Source: an uncultured Eubacteriales bacterium
GTDB taxonomy: Bacteria > Bacillota > Clostridia > Peptostreptococcales > Anaerovoracaceae
Reading direction: 5' to 3'
Assembly: GCA_902779185.1 (NCBI GenBank)
Contig: CACZAM010000019.1
Coordinates: forward strand, 1 to 33,303
Length of the DNA: 33,303 bases
A program made the translations under genes and the position numbers. The notes below the pieces were generated by a model. The model was not told where the DNA came from and made no database searches. It was given only the letters and a program-made list of their open reading frames with translations. Of this stretch, positions 16,967-32,029 are shown piece after piece; within the stretch, counting starts at the first letter, position 1; each line of letters opens with the position of its first letter.

Positions 16967-17953
16967 TTACTGGCTTGGGTATTTTTTCTTTAGCCCGGCG
17001 GATATCTTTTCGTAAAGAGGTGTGCTGACGCCGTACTGCTTGCCCATTCTGACGACGTCATAGATAAGGCCGTCTATCTCGGAGGCTTTCCCGGCAGCTA
17101 CGTCGCGCTGGAGCGATGTCGTCATGTCAGGTGAAAGACTTTCGATTATCTTCAGATTTGCCGCCACTATGTCTTCCCCGAAGCCGATACCCATGGCATC
17201 CGCCAGATCGGATACCTCTTTGATCAAACCGGCAAAGCAGTCTCTTATTTCCCCCGGCTCCTGGAAGGCACCGGCCGGCACGTCGTAATACAGGCCGCAC
17301 GCTCCCTGAGGCGAAACATATGAGAACTTCCTAAGGCAGTCTCTTTCTATGCTGTCCGAGAGTATGCCGTCGATCCCGCTGCTGCACAGGTCATCGCGCA
17401 CTCTTTCAAGGACCGGACCCATCTTGCGGCGCCACCATCTCTGTTCTTTCCTCAGACCGAAGACCACTCTCAGGATGATGCCGTTCATCCAGATGCACCC
17501 AGGCTCCTTTATCTCAGACGCAACGTAGATGCAGCCGTCGGTCACCGGCACATTCGGTATTCTCTCCTGAATGCGCGAGCCAGTCCCGAAGATATTGAGT
17601 ATCGGTATGACCACCGTATCCGGGCCGGCAACAAATGATATGAAAGGAATGATCTCATCTACGGAGTATCCCTTGACGCATACAAAAATCACATCCGGCG
17701 CAACATAACGTCCAAAGCTCCTTACCGTCTCAACTCTTCTGACACACTCTTCCGCAGTGAAGGCATTGACCGGAGCAATGAAGAATTCGCAGTCCGGCCG
17801 GCTCACTATGAGGCCGTTCTCCCTCATTGCCTCAAGGTGCTTTCCCCGCGCTATGAAAGTGACATTGTGTCCGGCGTGGGCCATGTGAGAGCCTAAAGCT
17901 CCGCCTGTGCCTCCCGCGCCTATTACCAGATATGTCAGCTTCTTTTTGTCCAT
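16967..17953 (-). CDS. Ketopantoate-reductase (ApbA/PanE) family protein (328 aa)
   Basis: The N-terminal Rossmann fold reads TYLVIGAGGTGGALGSHMA, the GxGxxG motif for NAD(P)H. VCVKGYSVDEI matches the conserved 'vKa' stretch (consensus from memory), and the C-terminal helical domain is typical of the 6-phosphogluconate-dehydrogenase-like group. The family includes 2-dehydropantoate 2-reductase of the pantothenate pathway, but no pan gene is nearby and many paralogues have other substrates. I start it at 17953 after GGGAAG. The in-frame ATG at 18037 lies only seven bases past the TATAAT box of the promoter, essentially at the transcription start. Confidence 0.8.
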   Translation of the reverse strand: MDKKKLTYLVIGAGGTGGALGSHMAHAGHNVTFIARGKHLEAMRENGLIVSRPDCEFFIAPVNAFTAEECVRRVETVRSFGRYVAPDVIFVCVKGYSVDEIIPFISFVAGPDTVVIPILNIFGTGSRIQERIPNVPVTDGCIYVASEIKEPGCIWMNGIILRVVFGLRKEQRWWRRKMGPVLERVRDDLCSSGIDGILSDSIERDCLRKFSYVSPQGACGLYYDVPAGAFQEPGEIRDCFAGLIKEVSDLADAMGIGFGEDIVAANLKIIESLSPDMTTSLQRDVAAGKASEIDGLIYDVVRMGKQYGVSTPLYEKISAGLKKKYPSQ

Positions 17954-18044
17954 CTCTTCCCATCCCTTGTATTTTTGTTGATTGTGCCCCTCTACTTTGT
18001 TAAGTATGGGCACTGAGGGGTAACAGAATCCCTCCATTTGTACT

Positions 18045-18053
18045 ATTATAGCA
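18045..18053 (-). promoter_or_regulatory. Extended -10 promoter of the ketopantoate-reductase-like gene
   Basis: TGCTATAAT on the minus strand is a perfect extended -10 element. The leader to the start at 17953 is about 85 bases. It diverges from the phosphoesterase promoter at 18115. Confidence 0.55.
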
Positions 18054-18114
18054 CGATATTTTTACTGGTTTGAGTTAGTTAACACAATTCCGCACGGATT
18101 CCGGCATTATCTTC

Positions 18115-18123
18115 TGATATAAT
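18115..18123 (+). promoter_or_regulatory. Extended -10 promoter of the YkuE-like phosphoesterase
   Basis: TGATATAAT on the plus strand, perfect for an extended -10, about 63 bases before the ATG. No clear -35 box. Confidence 0.5.
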
Positions 18124-18185
18124 CCGTTTGAGCGATATCCACTGCCCGGGTCACTGAATACGGTGTCCGGTGAACAAGAACTGAA

Positions 18186-19028
18186 ATGACAACCAAATCA
18201 AAAATAAACATAAAAAAAGCATTCGTCTCTGCCGCCGCCATTGTACTGGCAGGTCTGTCAGTATATACAGTCCGGACAGACTTGAATGTCTATGTAACGC
18301 ATTACAGCATGATGTCAGATAAAGTGACTGATCATATGCGGATAGTTCAGATATCTGACTTCCATAATGATCATCTGCTTGGCAGCAAAATGCTTGAAAA
18401 AGCCCGTGAAGAATCACCTGATATCATCGTTATTACCGGTGACTTCATAGACAAGATCAGAACCGATATACCGTATGCTCTCGAAACAGCTGAGTCGTTA
18501 GCGGAAATCGCACCTGTCTACTATGTTCCGGGCAATCATGAGTCCACAGTCAGTTCATATGACGGGTTTAAAGACGCGCTTATTCAGTGCGGCATTATCA
18601 TGCCCGGTTCCGACCCTGTCAAAGCAGACGCCGGCATCGATCTGTATGGAATAAACGATCCTTACTTCGTTTCGGTTGATGGTCACAACGGAAAAGCTGT
18701 AATAAGGGACAGCCTGACAGGCATCACTCCTGACAGCAGCAGGTACAGCATACTTCTTTCCCACAGGCCTGAAGCTTTTGAGGAATATGTTTCATCCGGA
18801 TTTGACCTTGTATTCACCGGTCACGCGCACGGCGGACAGTTCAGGCTCCCCGGGATCGGAGGTATATATGCGCCGGGACAGGGTCTCCTGCCTGAATATG
18901 ACGCAGGTGAGTTCAACGCCGGTGACACAACGATGATAGTGAGCAGAGGAATCGGCAAGAGCATTCTGCCGCTGAAAATCGGGAATCCTCCTGAGCTCGT
19001 GGTGCTCGACATTGCTCCGCTCACCTAG
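18186..19028 (+). CDS. Membrane-anchored metallophosphoesterase, YkuE/YaeI-like (280 aa)
   Basis: One N-terminal hydrophobic segment (about 12-28) would anchor it, with the catalytic domain outside. Calcineurin-like motifs are in order: ISDFHNDH (D58, H60), GDFID (85-89), GNHE (116-119), LSHRPE and TGHAHGGQ near 210. Enzymes of this group act on phosphate esters at the envelope, for example UDP-diacylglucosamine-like or phospholipid substrates in relatives; the substrate here is not known. The ribosome site is weak (GGTGA, about 12 bases away). Its TAG stop shares a CTAG with the stop of the convergent gene. Confidence 0.85.
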   Translation: MTTKSKINIKKAFVSAAAIVLAGLSVYTVRTDLNVYVTHYSMMSDKVTDHMRIVQISDFHNDHLLGSKMLEKAREESPDIIVITGDFIDKIRTDIPYALETAESLAEIAPVYYVPGNHESTVSSYDGFKDALIQCGIIMPGSDPVKADAGIDLYGINDPYFVSVDGHNGKAVIRDSLTGITPDSSRYSILLSHRPEAFEEYVSSGFDLVFTGHAHGGQFRLPGIGGIYAPGQGLLPEYDAGEFNAGDTTMIVSRGIGKSILPLKIGNPPELVVLDIAPLT

Positions 19029-25848: not shown

Positions 25849-26319
25849 TTAATCCATGCACATACCAAATTCCCTGCACAGATTTTCAAAGCGCGCCTGT
25901 TCTTTCTCTTTTATGGATTTTGACAGATCGTTCATGCAATGATGGATGACATCTGCGTCTTTAAGGACCTCATCCATCGGTCCGTCTGTAACAAGCTTGT
26001 CATCATGATGATAGATTGCGGAGCATATAGTCTCTGTCTCTTCCTCATCCGTAAGGTTCAGTCTGCCCAGGATCTCTCTCGCCAGAGCGGCTCCCTTATG
26101 CGCGTGGTCATCATATGATCCGCTTCTATACGCGTGAAGGTCATGCAGCATGGCTGCCATTGACGCGATCTCCCAGTCGAGGCCGCGCTTTTTTGCGATC
26201 ATCGTCGCCGCAAGTGAAACACCGTAAAGATGTACGATCGCGCTGGTTCGCTTATCTTCATCTTCCATCTTATTCAGTTCAGCATTTACATATGCCCGTA
26301 ACTCCTTCAGTCTGCCCAT
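25849..26319 (-). CDS. HD-domain phosphohydrolase (156 aa)
   Basis: HD-domain metal residues are visible: H30, the H59-D60 pair in MLHDLHAY, His residues at 72-74, HH in IYHHDDK, and the distal Asp in KDADVIHH. The fold usually cuts phosphate esters or nucleotides; this small stand-alone form has no assigned substrate. An AAAGGAG site lies ten bases before the ATG. Its stop is only five bases from that of the convergent BspA/ART gene, and I see no terminator between them. Confidence 0.8.
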   Translation of the reverse strand: MGRLKELRAYVNAELNKMEDEDKRTSAIVHLYGVSLAATMIAKKRGLDWEIASMAAMLHDLHAYRSGSYDDHAHKGAALAREILGRLNLTDEEETETICSAIYHHDDKLVTDGPMDEVLKDADVIHHCMNDLSKSIKEKEQARFENLCREFGMCMD

Positions 26320-26410
26320 GATAACAGTACTCCTTTGATTGTTTTGTCTCCAGCTGTGAAAACACTCATTTTGTGATTGCTGACTGCAACATAGTTTGTC
26401 ATATAAATAG

Positions 26411-26836
26411 TTATGGTTTCCATACGTGCAGACCTTCGCCTGCTGTTATCTGCCTTATCAGTTCCAGAAGACTATCGTCAGGATTGAAAACTGTCATGCT
26501 TGTGTCATCCGGCTCTGATAGGATCATTGAATCCCCTGCCATAATATAGAGGAACCTTAGCCGCATCTCTTCTGCAATGCGCTCAGGTGACGGATTCACT
26601 TCTGTCTCCTCATCGATCGAGATGTCCCTGTAGCAATTAAGTTTGAGGATCACATTTATATGTTTTTCTTTTATCACTGCAAACCGTTCTTTTTCAAGAA
26701 AGTATTTCTCTACTTCAAAATACTGTCCCGGACTGTAAGCCGGCACTTGCTTTGGCAGTATGTCTATTATCCAGTATGGAGTTTGCAGTAATTCTTCTAT
26801 AGTCTTTTTCATATCACTCACATAGTTCTGTTTCAT
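26411..26836 (-). CDS. Conserved hypothetical protein (141 aa)
   Basis: The opening pattern TPYWIIDILPKQVP followed by PGQYFEVEKYFL is one I associate with small clostridial proteins of unknown role. It is soluble, acidic at the C-terminus, with no signal or membrane segment. It may begin at the ATG at 26812 instead; neither start has a strong ribosome site. The gene lies 24 bases after the 134-aa gene on the same strand, so the two may be co-transcribed. Confidence 0.65.
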   Translation of the reverse strand: MKQNYVSDMKKTIEELLQTPYWIIDILPKQVPAYSPGQYFEVEKYFLEKERFAVIKEKHINVILKLNCYRDISIDEETEVNPSPERIAEEMRLRFLYIMAGDSMILSEPDDTSMTVFNPDDSLLELIRQITAGEGLHVWKP

Positions 26837-26860
26837 TCATATGTCAGATATTGACCTCTG

Positions 26861-27265
26861 CTATCCCTCCAGAATCTTCTCAACAAAGTAATTGTATTTC
26901 AGGAAGAAACCGTCCTCCATATACGGCAGTTCTATATAGATATTCTCTCCCCTCCTTGAAAACAGCATATTCGCTTCACCCGGCTCATACAGATACCCCA
27001 CTTCCTGCAAGTCTTTTTCTTTCAGTCTGGTCACTATCCTGACAAAATCATCCTTTCGCGGTCCGGCGTATCCCAGACCAATTAAGGCTGCTTCTTCTCC
27101 GTCCAGTTCAAATCTGAAGGCATCTTCCACGCCACAGTCATATTCGACATAGAAATCAAAGGAATGGCTCAGCAGTTTCTTTCTTTTTTTGCTGCTGCAT
27201 TCCCTGAAGTATTTCCATTTTTCGACAACCCTGGCTTTCGTTTCATCCGTCAGCATTTCGTTCAC
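26861..27265 (-). CDS. Hypothetical protein (134 aa)
   Basis: I do not recognise this protein. It is soluble and mixed alpha/beta, with a basic patch near residue 26 (SSKKRKKLL) and an acidic C-terminal half. The start at 27265 is GTG; an ATG three codons later (27256) after GGTG is an alternative. It diverges from lanM with about 80 bases between its start and the lanM promoter. That position would suit an accessory or immunity gene, but nothing in the sequence supports this. Confidence 0.6.
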   Translation of the reverse strand: MNEMLTDETKARVVEKWKYFRECSSKKRKKLLSHSFDFYVEYDCGVEDAFRFELDGEEAALIGLGYAGPRKDDFVRIVTRLKEKDLQEVGYLYEPGEANMLFSRRGENIYIELPYMEDGFFLKYNYFVEKILEG

Positions 27266-27301
27266 CGTCTCTGCAAATCAAGTTTTTGTTTACTCTGCTC
27301 C

Positions 27302-27307
27302 ATTATA
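27302..27307 (-). promoter_or_regulatory. Candidate -10 box for the 134-aa gene
   Basis: A perfect TATAAT on the minus strand, about 37 bases before the GTG start. No -35 box or TGn extension fits. Confidence 0.35.
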
Positions 27308-27344
27308 CAATATGAATTTACTGATTTCTTTGCGGTCTCATCAT

Positions 27345-27375
27345 TTGAAAACAAAAAAACAATGTATGATATAAT
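27345..27375 (+). promoter_or_regulatory. lanM promoter
   Basis: TTGAAA (27345-27350) and an extended -10 TGATATAAT (27367-27375). The spacer is 19 bases, so the TG extension probably does most of the work. Transcription would start near 27382. Confidence 0.6.
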
Positions 27376-27380
27376 TCGTT

Positions 27381-27407
27381 TGAACAAACCGGTGTTCATG
27401 AATTCAT
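27381..27407 (+). promoter_or_regulatory. Candidate operator at the lanM transcription start
   Basis: A dyad TGAACA-AACCGG-TGTTCA (27381-27398) begins at the expected transcription start. It is followed at once by the perfect 10-bp palindrome ATGAATTCAT (27398-27407). A repressor bound here would block lanM; a 5' RNA hairpin is the alternative. It is not a standard LexA box, whose half-sites are closer. Confidence 0.45.
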
Positions 27408-27442
27408 AACGCCTTAAAGGAAGTATTTGACAAGAGGACGGC

Positions 27443-30226
27443 ATGACAGACTCCAGTTTGCAGGTAAATTCAGAAAATATATTTATGAGTATTTTCCGGG
27501 ATACGATGGCTCCATTTCTTTCGGAACTAGCCTCGGACTCCCCTGTTTTGCTGTCAGAAGAGGCAAAGGCAGATCTGGAAAAACCCTTTCGGGAGACTTT
27601 GATCCTCATTGCAGGCAATACGCTCGAAGAAGCAGCCGTTCAGATCATTGCCGCAGATCATCCCATTGTTGCCTTTGACCGCAAGCTGTGTACAAACGAG
27701 CAGCGGCATGAAGCATATCAGCTTCTTGAATCACAGCTTAAGGCCGGGGACCGGACGCTTCCGGCAGAACTCTATCATGTGATCCGTTCGCGGTTCCGGC
27801 TTTTAACAGATGCGCTGTCTGAAATGCTCAGAAACATCACGCGCAGCACAAATGAGATCTCAGATCTGCTGTTTGACGGAGTTCCCTTTACCCGCATTGA
27901 ACGGATAGAAGCCGGTGCAGGCGATTACCACAACAAGGCACGGGCGACGGCGATCATCAGGACGGACCGGGGAACGATGGTATATAAGCCCCGTAACTGC
28001 CTGACGGATGTGAGGACCCGCATGTTTGTGGAGCAATATTTTCCGGACAGCATCGTGATTCCGAAATGCTATACGGACGGCGCGTCTTTTGGTGTCTGTG
28101 AATATCTTAAAAAGGATCCTGTCAATGAGGATGCAGAAGCAGCATGGTTTTACGCGCTGGGAGAGCTGACCGTGATGACACAGATCCTGGGAAGCTGCGA
28201 CTTGCATAATGAAAATGTTATCGCATCAGGGGGCCTTCCCGCACTGATCGATCTGGAAACCATCCTCTCTCCCCGGATCCGCAAAGAGCCGGTTTCCGGC
28301 AGTCAGGAACATGCCTCATTTACTGACGCGATCTCTTATTCCATATGGTACAGCGCGCTTCTGCCTAAAGAACAGAACGGCCGGCAGCTCAGCATTCTGA
28401 TGCGTACGGATGATATGCCTGCTGCTGTTATAGATTACCCGGATGAGTATTTTGCCGGGATCGATACAGCTTACAGAAGATGTCTGGCCAAAAAAGAAAA
28501 ACTGGAACAGGATGTGAAGGATCTGTTTTCGGATGTGCCGGTCCGGCTTATGATGCGAAATACACAGATCTACGCAGACCTTATAAAAAGAAGATACAGC
28601 GCCGGCGTGCTTTCTTCAGAGGAGGCATTCAACTCGTTTTCACGAAATCTTGAGAAAGCCATGACGGCCACCCTGGCAGAGGAAATGTACACAGGTATTT
28701 GCCGTTCGGAAACAGAGGCGGTCCTTCAGGGAGACATCCCCTATTTCTATACATTCGGGAACAGTACCTTTGTGTTCGGCATAAACGGGAAGATAAGTGA
28801 TGCGGTCCGGGAAAGCGCAGTAAGTGAGAGTCTGAAAAGGATCAGATGCATGAGCGAACAGGACCTTCTGTTCGAAAAGAAATTGATACGGGAATCTTTA
28901 GAAGGTGTACCGGTAAAAAAAGAACAGAACAGCCGGAGCGTATCACCCGCAGACAAAGAGGATCTCCCGGAGCGGTCCGGAGAGATCCTTCCGGCCGGGA
29001 TATCTGCCGGAGAGGCAGGCGAGATCTTAAAGAAGATCTGCAACCGCATGGTCACCGCACCCGATGGAAGCTGCGGTTGGATCGATGCAGGAAGCCGCAG
29101 CGGATCCCCTGAGATCATGCGATCGGGTATGTTCACCGGGACTGCCGGTATCGGCGTATTTGCTGCTGCGGCAGCGGCCGCAGCAAAGTCCGGGGATGTC
29201 CTGGAAGCTGCCGTAAAATGCGAAAAAGCTGCGGCAGACAGCCTGGCAGAATCACTGGAATTGATGAAAGATATGAACCGGACCAGCCCATCAGGTTTTC
29301 TGAACGGAAGCATGGGTGAAGCTTCCGGCATGGGCGGGATCCTCCGGTGCCTGATTCTCATGAACCGCTATTCCGGCTGCAACAGGTATGCAGGAATGAT
29401 AGATGAGGTTCTTGATCTTTTAGCACGCACAGATATTTCTGCGGTTACTGACGCAGACAGAATAACAGGGCTGTCAGGCACCCTTTCTCTTCTGTGCAGT
29501 TATCCCGAGTTCTATCAGAAACAACAGGTGAAGTCCCTGATCGCTGAGATCGCTGACAGGCTGCTGGAGCTTCGCACCTTTGAGGCCGATGGGTTCAGGC
29601 TTTGGAAAACAGTTTCCGAGCGTCATCTCATCAGCGGAGCAGGACACGGCATGGCCGGCATAGCGGAATCCCTGCATGCGGCAGGCCGCCTTCTTTCGGA
29701 CAGGCGGTATACTGATGCCGCATCGGACGCGCTGGAGTATGAAGAGCAGTCGTACAGTGAGAAGTTCGGGACCTGGCCGGATAACCGGTCATGGCCGGCA
29801 CAGCACTATATGCATGGCTATTGCTCCGGAGCTCCGGGCATCGGGATAATGACGCACCGTATCCTGGAAAGCTTTTCCGCATCAGACACGGAGATGCCTG
29901 AATATGACAGGCTCTGCAGATCCTGCAGGAAATGTGCGCTTCTGGCCAAAGCAGCAAACGATAAACTGCCGCTTTTGTATCGTGACCATCTGTGCTGCGG
30001 AAACAGTGCGATCGCGGAGTATTACCTTGCAAACGGAGAGCCGGAGAAAGCCGGAAGTGTGTTGAACGCCATGTATCTGCGTAAAGAAAAGTCAGGAGAT
30101 TACATGACGATGTCCGCCGGATACCGGAGCAGGAAACCCATGATCTCATTGTTTTACGGGATTTCCGGTGTCGGGTATGAAATGCTCAGGTACGCTTTCC
30201 CGGACCGGATCCTTCCGCTGTTATGA
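27443..30226 (+). CDS. lanM: Class II lanthipeptide synthetase LanM (927 aa)
   Basis: It makes lanthionine rings in two steps: phosphorylation and elimination of Ser/Thr in the precursor, then addition of Cys thiols. The N-terminal dehydratase (about 60-500) has the kinase-like sites G160-D-Y-H-N, Y181-K182-P-R, D253-L-H255-N-E-N258 and D270-L-E272. The C-terminal LanC cyclase (about 545-927) has GHGMAGI (H735), YCSG (C794) and LCCG (C851, C852). The zinc ligands are thus three Cys, as in ProcM, instead of the more common Cys-Cys-His. A GAGGAC site precedes the ATG. Length is normal, perhaps slightly short. The precursor gene lies tail to tail downstream, beyond a shared hairpin. No LanT, LanP or LanFEG is recognisable nearby. 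CCGG-rich codon use contrasts with the AT-richer small genes around it, so transfer is possible. Confidence 0.92.
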   Translation: MTDSSLQVNSENIFMSIFRDTMAPFLSELASDSPVLLSEEAKADLEKPFRETLILIAGNTLEEAAVQIIAADHPIVAFDRKLCTNEQRHEAYQLLESQLKAGDRTLPAELYHVIRSRFRLLTDALSEMLRNITRSTNEISDLLFDGVPFTRIERIEAGAGDYHNKARATAIIRTDRGTMVYKPRNCLTDVRTRMFVEQYFPDSIVIPKCYTDGASFGVCEYLKKDPVNEDAEAAWFYALGELTVMTQILGSCDLHNENVIASGGLPALIDLETILSPRIRKEPVSGSQEHASFTDAISYSIWYSALLPKEQNGRQLSILMRTDDMPAAVIDYPDEYFAGIDTAYRRCLAKKEKLEQDVKDLFSDVPVRLMMRNTQIYADLIKRRYSAGVLSSEEAFNSFSRNLEKAMTATLAEEMYTGICRSETEAVLQGDIPYFYTFGNSTFVFGINGKISDAVRESAVSESLKRIRCMSEQDLLFEKKLIRESLEGVPVKKEQNSRSVSPADKEDLPERSGEILPAGISAGEAGEILKKICNRMVTAPDGSCGWIDAGSRSGSPEIMRSGMFTGTAGIGVFAAAAAAAAKSGDVLEAAVKCEKAAADSLAESLELMKDMNRTSPSGFLNGSMGEASGMGGILRCLILMNRYSGCNRYAGMIDEVLDLLARTDISAVTDADRITGLSGTLSLLCSYPEFYQKQQVKSLIAEIADRLLELRTFEADGFRLWKTVSERHLISGAGHGMAGIAESLHAAGRLLSDRRYTDAASDALEYEEQSYSEKFGTWPDNRSWPAQHYMHGYCSGAPGIGIMTHRILESFSASDTEMPEYDRLCRSCRKCALLAKAANDKLPLLYRDHLCCGNSAIAEYYLANGEPEKAGSVLNAMYLRKEKSGDYMTMSAGYRSRKPMISLFYGISGVGYEMLRYAFPDRILPLL

Positions 30227-30238
30227 TCCATAGACAAA

Positions 30239-30281
30239 AGGGCTTGATGCATTCGCTTAAATGCACCAAACCCTCTTTTTT
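30239..30281 (+). terminator. Terminator between lanM and the convergent precursor gene
   Basis: The stem runs AGGG (30239-30242) to CCCT (30271-30274), with TT/AA and TGCAT/ATGCA pairs inside, interrupted by small bulges. Six T follow on the plus strand. On the minus strand four T follow, so it may also stop transcription of the precursor gene. Confidence 0.75.
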
Positions 30282-30309
30282 ACATACACAACACAGTTGT
30301 TTTACCAGA

Positions 30310-30624
30310 TCAATCCCAGATGCAAGGAGAATCCGAATTTATCGATATCGCAATACAGCCGAATACCGTCGCTACGGTGGTAACCACGTCAAAAGGTGAA
30401 ACTTTGCCGCCGGCCACAGCTGATAGTTCTTCCTCACTCATTTTACGTCCACTGGCAGGCAGTTTCTCCTTAATGAATTCGATCAATTCATCTACTGTGG
30501 CTGAGCACTCATGTTTTTTCAGAAACGCAGCCGCATCTTCTTTGGTTGCTATGCTTCCGGAAAATTCTTTCTTCAGCTCATCAGACGCAATTATTTCGTC
30601 ATATAATGCCTGTAATGCTTTCAC
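30310..30624 (-). CDS. lanA: Lanthipeptide precursor with Nif11-type leader (104 aa)
   Basis: The 104 residues split into a charged helical leader (1-73) and a core (74-104). The leader resembles Nif11-derived leaders, with a conserved-looking FLKKHECSATVDELIEFIK stretch, and ends EELSAVAGG, the double-Gly cut site. The core has Ser/Thr at 76, 82, 83, 86, 94, 97 and 99 and Cys at 90 and 101, so up to two thioether rings are possible; it ends CIWD. The start is GTG at 30624, after an excellent AAAGGAG site about nine bases away. It has its own promoter at 30693-30701. The substrate relation to LanM is inferred from adjacency and from Nif11-leader pairing with ProcM-type enzymes. A C39-peptidase transporter to cut after GG must be encoded elsewhere. 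Confidence 0.85.
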   Translation of the reverse strand: MKALQALYDEIIASDELKKEFSGSIATKEDAAAFLKKHECSATVDELIEFIKEKLPASGRKMSEEELSAVAGGKVSPFDVVTTVATVFGCIAISINSDSPCIWD

Positions 30625-30692
30625 TTTACCGCTCTCCTTTCTGATCCAACCGTGATCTCAATGACCGGTTTCTTATTACGTTTTACATTGAA

Positions 30693-30701
30693 ATTATAGC
30701 A
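30693..30701 (-). promoter_or_regulatory. Extended -10 promoter of the precursor gene
   Basis: TGCTATAAT on the minus strand, a perfect extended -10, about 69 bases before the GTG start. No good -35 box. The precursor can therefore be expressed independently of lanM and of the genes upstream of it. Confidence 0.6.
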
Positions 30702-30764
30702 GAACCCGGTCCCTTTTAAAACAGTACCGATGCTAAACGCAAGTCACAGGCAGGCATGTACTGT

Positions 30765-31145
30765 CTATAATCCGGTCCTGTATAATTCGATCACATTTAT
30801 AACAGGTTCTTCATAAGGATGGACAGCTTTTACAGCTTCAATCGTCTCATCCAGCCGATCGCCATTTACAGTTACTTCAACTTTCAGCTCCTCTTCTTCG
30901 CTGATCATACCTTCTTCTCCAATGAACGGATCTGTGCCCGGAAGAGGTCTCCATGTTCCGATGACCCTGCTGTATGACAGACAGCAGTCATAATTACCTA
31001 TGTGCCCGGCATCTGCACTCTGAAGAGCTTTCCTCAGATCTGCAAAATGTGTTTCAGGAATGAATATCTCCAGCTTGAAGAATTTGTCATTCCCGCCGGT
31101 ATACTCAGCATCTTCTTTTTTCAGATTCTCAATTATGCGTTCCAT
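30765..31145 (-). CDS. NIF3/CutA-like PII-fold protein (126 aa)
   Basis: The sequence runs KLEIFIPETHFADLRKAL, then a GHIGNYD segment, then EELKVEVTVNGDRLDETIEA and VHPYEEPVINVIEL. This matches the stand-alone version of the domain inserted in NIF3/YqfO proteins, which has a PII/CutA-like fold. Metal or nucleotide sensing is suspected for the fold, but no function is proven. I start it at 31145 because GGAGGT lies four bases before; a start four codons upstream is possible. It follows the CmpB-like gene by 22 bases and precedes the lanthipeptide precursor on the same strand. Confidence 0.75.
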   Translation of the reverse strand: MERIIENLKKEDAEYTGGNDKFFKLEIFIPETHFADLRKALQSADAGHIGNYDCCLSYSRVIGTWRPLPGTDPFIGEEGMISEEEELKVEVTVNGDRLDETIEAVKAVHPYEEPVINVIELYRTGL

Positions 31146-31167
31146 TCTGACCTCCATTGGCCGCGAT

Positions 31168-31905
31168 CTATCTGTTCAGTGACTTTTCCAGTTCCTCCAT
31201 CCTCTGCCTGTAGTGTTCGAGCATCTCGTTCATTCTTTCTCTTCTCGGGAGGCTCATGAAGAACCGGATCTTATCCTCCTGCTCTTTGCGCTTCTCGTAT
31301 GTTATACGCTTGAATTCTTCGTACCTGACAACGATTTCCTTTTCATCAGCAAATTCCTTGATCCGTGTTACCAGGTTGATGGAATAGGCGACATCTATTG
31401 AAAACACTCCGAAGAAAACTCCTATAAAGAAAGAGAATGCAAGGTTGGATGCCAGCCATGCAAGTGCCTCAAGTATATGTGGATGGATCAGGTAATAGTA
31501 CATCACGCCAAGCAATGTCCAGAACAAGGTGAACAGCGGGCAGATAAGCCCATTCACATTTCCCCACATCATACTGTAATCCCACAGTCTGACATTTGCT
31601 GCTTTGAGGAGGAATATACCTGCTATGTACTCAAGCAGCGTGAGTTCTGCAGCTATGAGAATGAGAGCGAGTACATGCTGTGCAATGCCGGTGATACCAA
31701 GGCGTTCTATCATGCTTGCCATGAAATACAGTATGCATAGTCCGAATCCATACAGTGGGACATAAGGGCCAACACAGAACCCCGGATTGATCCATCTGTG
31801 CTCGGGATTAGCCCTTGAAAACCAGTGCCTGAATACTAGCTCCAGTCCCCATCCGAACAAAGATCCCATAAAAAAAAGAAATGCGTATATCAAAAAAACA
31901 TTCAT
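31168..31905 (-). CDS. CmpB-type (putative ABC-transporter permease family) membrane protein (245 aa)
   Basis: Five or so membrane segments fill residues 1-185, including GSLFGWGLELVFRHW and NPGFCVGPYVPLYGFG, the signature region of this clostridial family. A charged coiled-coil-like tail follows (about 195-245, rich in Glu, Arg and Lys). Despite the family name there is no ATPase partner, and it has no peptidase domain, so it is not a LanT exporter. I start it at the ATG at 31905; a TTG four codons upstream is also open. It is co-directional with the CutA-like gene. Confidence 0.7.
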   Translation of the reverse strand: MNVFLIYAFLFFMGSLFGWGLELVFRHWFSRANPEHRWINPGFCVGPYVPLYGFGLCILYFMASMIERLGITGIAQHVLALILIAAELTLLEYIAGIFLLKAANVRLWDYSMMWGNVNGLICPLFTLFWTLLGVMYYYLIHPHILEALAWLASNLAFSFFIGVFFGVFSIDVAYSINLVTRIKEFADEKEIVVRYEEFKRITYEKRKEQEDKIRFFMSLPRRERMNEMLEHYRQRMEELEKSLNR

Positions 31906-32029
31906 AATAACTTTCAAAAGCCTTTTTCTGTTACTACTTTTAAGTTTATCAATAGCGACCTCTTTTACTCAACGCCGCTGCTTGGAATCCAGCATTTTCA
32001 TGGTTTCAGCAGGTAAACCGTATTTTTTG

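Follow-up and report, generated by a model that had tools for sequence, protein, structure and literature searches.

A probable two-gene class II lanthipeptide locus with a Nif11-type leader, and a candidate exporter elsewhere in the genome, in an uncultured Eubacteriales bacterium

How might a bacterium mature and release a lanthipeptide when the modifying enzyme and its precursor stand together without a transporter beside them? This question is raised by a 33,303-nucleotide stretch of DNA (hereafter the window) from an uncultured Eubacteriales bacterium (assembly GCA_902779185.1), in which the gene for a class II lanthipeptide synthetase, LanM, faces a short open reading frame (ORF) with a double-glycine leader. 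The window is the entire contig C19 of an assembly of 2.25 Mb in 81 contigs that is 79% complete, a limit that applies to every genome-wide search reported here. We found an intact LanM and, tail to tail with it, a homologous precursor with a Nif11-type leader, while an NHLM-type C39 exporter is encoded elsewhere in the genome. On the sequence comparisons described below we consider it likely that the two genes form a class II lanthipeptide unit that uses this resident exporter in trans. The parts of the unit are the following.

27443..30226, + strand: LanM, class II lanthipeptide synthetase of 927 amino acids (aa) with a CCG-type zinc site (TIGR03897, PF13575, PF05147, catalytic and zinc residues)
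30310..30624, - strand: LanA, putative precursor of 104 aa with a GTG start (precursor-profile scores)
30406..30624, - strand: Nif11-type leader, residues 1-73, ending M(-12)...E(-8)L(-7)...AGG (alignment A2, hhalign; TIGR03798 below cut-off)
30313..30405, - strand: predicted core peptide of 31 aa, KVSPFDVVTTVATVFGCIAISINSDSPCIWD (alignment A2; modest core-only similarity)

The sequence-only reading, an earlier annotation of this DNA, had called the LanM complete, and this is borne out. The protein scores 385.8 bits against TIGR03897, above the cut-off of 304, which places it in the LanM class, and both of its Pfam domains are recognized (DUF4135, PF13575, 172.4 bits; LANC_like, PF05147, 105.1 bits). 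In a 49-row alignment it keeps all of the residues that we take to serve dehydration (K182, D253, H255, N258, D270 and E272) and cyclization (H735, C794, C851 and C852, with three zinc Cys and the motif DHLCCGN). The sole PDB sequence matches at E 0.01 are likewise class II synthetases, LicM2 (6st5) and CylM (5dzt), both of them distant (E 2.2e-24 and 1.8e-18). This LanM is the sole LanC-like match in the whole genome.

The precursor ORF starts with a GTG that is preceded by a good ribosome site, AAAGGAGAG. Against a profile of 21 precursors adjoining related LanMs, from which the window was excluded, it scored 70.9 bits (E 3e-21), whereas the runner-up among 553 ORFs reached 5.7 bits and the best of 2000 shuffles 18.1; the 21 reference precursors had originally been found by a nine-leader profile that included the leader of the window. 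With that leader removed, the remaining eight-leader profile, drawn from the wider taxonomic family, gave the ORF 28.2 bits (E 2e-6). The same profile recovers precursors at E <=0.01 in six related loci (L021, L023, L024, L025, L026 and L042), and in L027 and L028 only at 0.023. An overlapping ORF on the + strand (30320-30655) was discarded, since the - strand ORF is a member of the precursor family by profile.

The claim of a Nif11-like leader ending in VAGG holds in part. VAGG occupies residues 70-73, and hhalign relates the leader profile to Cylindrospermum Nif11 leaders with 90.4% probability (E 1.4e-6). However, the TIGR03798 Nif11 leader model gives the 104-aa ORF only 19 bits against a cut-off of 32.3, and the Pfam Nif11 model PF07862 does not match it. 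The TIGR03798 cut-off is passed by 3 of the 7 related clade and sister precursors that were scanned (L023:651-962, L021 and L025). Judged by its homology and its GG end, the leader is a divergent Nif11 relative and not a full TIGR03798 member. Of the C39 recognition pattern given in PMC6363468 it keeps E(-8), L(-7) and GG, but position -12 has Met instead of Leu. The core holds 2 Cys, 4 Ser and 3 Thr, and in alignment A2 (17 rows including the window) Cys90 is conserved in every row and Cys101 in almost every row. A weak match to the Pfam model Bacteriocin_IIc (15.3 bits against a cut-off of 27.1) and the shuffled gene order of the region would also suit a double-glycine bacteriocin or signal that stays unmodified and only happens to have a LanM as neighbour. 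The homology to precursors adjoining related LanMs and the retained Cys positions make this very improbable.

Does the LanM belong with enzymes that work on such precursors? Relatives were collected in a contig scan (101 coding relatives, 80 kept, giving 75 loci), and the tree holds 49 rows, namely 48 hand-picked from a list of ORFs plus L134, with other listed ORFs, partial and duplicate ones included, left out; C-terminal trees were used to place L038, L039, L044, L059 and L053. The window LanM groups with seven LanMs of 901-910 aa at 99% support, and L027/L028 form the sister (86). Contigs of this clade are binned as Treponema, Coriobacteriaceae, Oscillospiraceae and other Clostridia; such bins may err, yet the clade is present in two Treponema metagenome-assembled genomes (L021 and L059). 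The named sources of 4 of the 7 clade members are the reticulum of goat and the rumen of sheep and yak, and RUG isolates are of rumen origin. Nif11-type precursors occur at 8 of the 10 clade or sister loci that have upstream sequence (L021, L023-L028 and L042); L022, L038 and L044 contain no upstream sequence and hence lie outside this count. A further sister group, to which G007 and G028 of the genus belong, has short precursors ending in NGG whose cores end in a Cys-rich G-x-aromatic motif (L013, L014, L030, L031 and L046 inspected). Since the precursor profile weakly matches 6 of the 17 loci of that group, a distant relationship between the AGG and NGG leader types is possible.

The sequence-only reading had further seen in the pair a clostridial relative of the prochlorosin system, possibly with more precursors elsewhere in the genome. 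The relation is partly supported, since a CCG LanM and a Nif11-type leader are two marks of the prochlorosin group. Yet the LanM groups apart from the three cyanobacterial LanMs compared (two from Cylindrospermum, one from Scytonema), which sit in the opposite half of a tree that does not have ProcM among its rows, and the Cylindrospermum pair is missing parts of the zinc site. According to the accessible text of PMC10027976 and PMC10783134, Nif11 leaders are linked to CCG LanMs and the CCG site is tied to promiscuous LanMs. It might thus be asked whether our enzyme is promiscuous in the manner of ProcM, with its main substrates elsewhere and the 104-aa ORF as one among several, and clade relatives do carry several precursors per LanM (five in L023, six in L024). 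The expectation of further precursors was not upheld: searches of the 79%-complete assembly with the precursor protein itself, TIGR03798 and the 17-row profile of alignment A2, whose match to the window precursor is by construction, yielded one convincing precursor and no convincing second one. The dozens of precursors of the ProcM system also differ from this. Moreover, the clade, with LanMs of ~900-927 aa from gut and rumen, has cores that fix the Cys positions and are not hypervariable. A ProcM-style role therefore seems to us quite unlikely.

Where, then, could the product of a two-gene unit be exported? That no LanT lies beside the pair is true within the window, but it does not hold for the genome. 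A search for a C39-peptidase ABC transporter, which had been proposed as a check, found two C39/ABC loci, one on contigs C60 and C72 and one on C1. The C60 protein (ABC1) scores 913.3 bits against TIGR03796 (cut-off 853.3) and has the C39 Cys. In the C1 transporter pair this Cys is, by our reading of the sequence, replaced, and the scores stay below the NHLM cut-offs; two related reverse-transcriptase genes flank this NHLM-like pair (L007:5103-6386 and 17248-18501). The sister of the window LanM, L038 (100/99 and 99/97 in two C-terminal trees), is followed directly downstream by an NHLM HlyD-like ORF, ABC1 and ABC2, and L042 has a row of genes with exporter, precursors, LanM, radical SAM/SPASM, STAS, SpoIIE and RsbW-like genes. 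From this linkage in L038 and L042 we infer that the C60/C72 exporter may handle the window precursor.

The distribution in the genus points the same way. LanM occurs in 4 of 47 genus genomes and 8 of 349 family genomes (E 1e-10), and in 4 of 393 genomes of the order sample (E 1e-40). An ABC1 over the cut-off is found in 10 of the 47 genus genomes, covering all 4 with LanM (Fisher p 0.0012, and 0.0055 without G033, whose LanM cyclase is degenerate), p values that are optimistic because the genomes are related and incomplete. Peptides with a Nif11-like leader ending in AGG stand beside 2 of the 8 genus exporter loci examined (G007 and G033) and are absent from the other 6; a third such peptide lies ~1.8 kb from an exporter (G014:C160). 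Against TIGR03798 the G014 peptide reaches 20 bits, under the cut-off, and the G007 peptide is unmatched.

Hence the proposal of a two-gene unit exported in trans is built on a complete LanM in a clade with 99% support, on a precursor homologous to those beside related LanMs and the presence of precursors at most of these loci, on the exporter linkage in L038 and L042 and the score of the C60 ABC1, and on the co-occurrence in the genus, the AGG peptides near three genus exporters and the C39 pattern of the leader. Several observations weigh against it. The exporter is unlinked to LanM in this genome, and ABC1 and ABC2 are on separate contigs; ABC2, at the start of C72, scores 701 against TIGR03797, just under the cut-off of 709.4, and the short HlyD-like gene ahead of ABC1 reaches 30, far under its cut-off of 156.2. 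Six genus members have the exporter without a LanM. No precursor was found in the upstream sequence of L039, which has a partial LanM ORF, or of L059, which has a broken LanM. The window core is short, and its similarity by core alone is modest: it ranks 11 of 1925 scored, and 3636 of 100000 shuffles match it in a simpler test with a position-specific scoring matrix, which held several mis-registered segments and is only indicative. Finally, C60 extends 98 bp past ABC1 (L006:6633-6730) and C72 has 103 bp before ABC2 (L108:1-103), and both sequences differ from the 14-nt gap between ABC1 and ABC2 in G043, so that the exporter operon may be interrupted by an insertion.

These contig ends, together with an IS200-type transposase on C72 and the broken LanM of the clade relative L059, could be taken to mean that the unit is stranded or decaying, with LanM and precursor intact and a product that stays unexported since the NHLM operon is interrupted. 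However, ABC1, ABC2 and LanM are each full-length, and any insertion would be intergenic; we regard a stranded unit as unlikely.

Has the pair been acquired, or has the exporter? The C60 ABC1 is 84% identical to that of G043, of the same genus, and 66% and 63% identical to those of L042 and L038. Since this closest match comes from within the genus, the exporter appears to be resident and the LanM pair to have been acquired. Around the pair (25849-31917 of the window), four single genes share 84-96% identity with counterparts in close relatives, where they stand in different orders, and no LanM match was found in the draft genomes of 6 close relatives that have the neighbouring CmpB-like gene at 94-96%. 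The shuffled order and the missing LanM fit a gene-shuffled stretch that took in the LanM/precursor pair as one unit. The idea of an integron-like array was set aside, as the 69-bp stretch of the window that recurs twice in L125 reaches into the start of one of the window's genes.

If the exporter is indeed used in trans, the following course can be proposed. The leader would dock the precursor onto LanM, which would dehydrate several of the core's 7 Ser/Thr and add Cys90 and Cys101 to them. At most two (methyl)lanthionine rings would result, one possibly joining the TT/T cluster with Cys90 and the other joining Ser97 or Ser99 with Cys101. The C60 transporter would cleave after Gly73 by means of its C39 domain and, together with the ABC2 subunit of C72, would export a product of ~31 aa. 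The pair would have arrived as a module in the gene-shuffled region and would employ an exporter type already present in the genus. The product is probably a bacteriocin or a signal, with about an even chance of an antimicrobial use.

The two genes are convergent, as had been described, although 83 nt and not 84 separate their stops. Between and ahead of them we noted three candidate control elements.

30239..30281, both strands: hairpin with T tract between the convergent genes, a presumed two-way terminator (folding against shuffles)
30720-30693, - strand: candidate extended -10 promoter of the precursor, TTTAAA-16-TATAAT with TG (promoter scan)
27345..27375, + strand: candidate extended -10 promoter of LanM, TTGAAA-19-TATAAT with TG (by eye only, absent from the scan)

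The hairpin presumed to serve both genes as terminator is far more stable than shuffles on both strands (+ strand -14.1 kcal/mol, z -4.05, then CTTTTTT; - strand -28.9 kcal/mol, z -5.60, with a 3' arm ending in TTTT), but a simple terminator scan did not list it between the stops. An extended -10 promoter for each gene had been claimed as well. The candidate of the precursor does appear in the scan, yet that of LanM does not, and the 3 promoter-like matches in total are no excess over chance (shuffle mean 4.1). Rfam at gathering thresholds gave zero matches in the window, C60 and C72.

The related loci themselves show additional features. In 7 of 13 loci examined a radical SAM/SPASM gene lies downstream of LanM (L021, L023, L024, L026, L042, L044 and L039), and genes for STAS, a SpoIIE-type phosphatase and an RsbW-like protein accompany several of these. 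It is possible that the former provides a second modification and the latter a partner-switch control. In the genome of the window the best radical SAM match (29% over residues 85-247 of 465) was not accepted as an orthologue. In the Treponema locus L059:7042-8768 LanM is split between two ORFs, and the 7 kb upstream of it yielded no precursor. The cyclase site is degenerate in the LanM homologues of L018, L019, L015, L020, L091 and L054, of which L018 retains three zinc Cys without the cyclase His. Beside L018 and L019 are Nif11-leader precursors (TIGR03798 56.2 and 50 bits) with Cys-free, Ser/Thr-rich cores, and an FMN-reductase-like gene (29 bits, under the cut-off, in L018; alike by eye in L019). 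Perhaps their products are peptides that are dehydrated and then reduced, free of rings.

How does the locus compare with known systems? With the prochlorosins and ProcM it shares the Nif11-type GG leader and the CCG zinc motif of LanM (the motif as given in the accessible text of PMC10027976 and PMC10783134). Haft 2010 (PMC2887384, accessible portions) connected N11P precursors with NHLM exporters and, for cyanobacteria, also with LanM. As in that N11P/NHLP-NHLM scheme, a Nif11-type precursor, a LanM and a TIGR03796/TIGR03797-type exporter are all present in one genome, and modification and export parts evolve in a mix-and-match manner; in contrast to it, our exporter is unlinked to LanM, and those portions name LanM-adjacent N11P for cyanobacteria only. 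The accessible text of PMC6363468 describes Nif11-type Lah precursors in Lachnospiraceae C6A11, with similar double-Gly leaders removed by a transporter C39 domain, but there nine precursors lie in a single cluster, and the term LahM is absent from the main text. In its available part PMC7268733 assigns Nif11 class II family II 26 to cyanobacteria, and PMC8241843 and PMC13289728, as far as accessible, list rumen class II lanthipeptides with the Nif11 leader type unnamed. In the open-licence literature searched we found no description of this gut/rumen LanM clade.

Tentatively, and at somewhat less than an even chance, we suggest that these loci represent a lineage of short CCG LanMs from gut and rumen whose Nif11-type lanthipeptides have a conserved core, spread over bins of Clostridia, two Treponema and a Coriobacteriaceae. 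An NHLM exporter, radical SAM/SPASM and a STAS/SpoIIE/RsbW switch accompany it at several loci, and the window might be a reduced, portable two-gene plug-in that borrows the resident exporter in trans. If this were true, lanthipeptide maturation units would be movable as two genes, dependent on a standing peptide exporter, and searches that require a linked transporter would undervalue such units. There would be a rumen and gut LanM lineage distinct from the compared cyanobacterial LanMs, whose conserved core would suggest a common target, and its relatives would possibly make peptides that combine lanthionine with radical-SAM modification.

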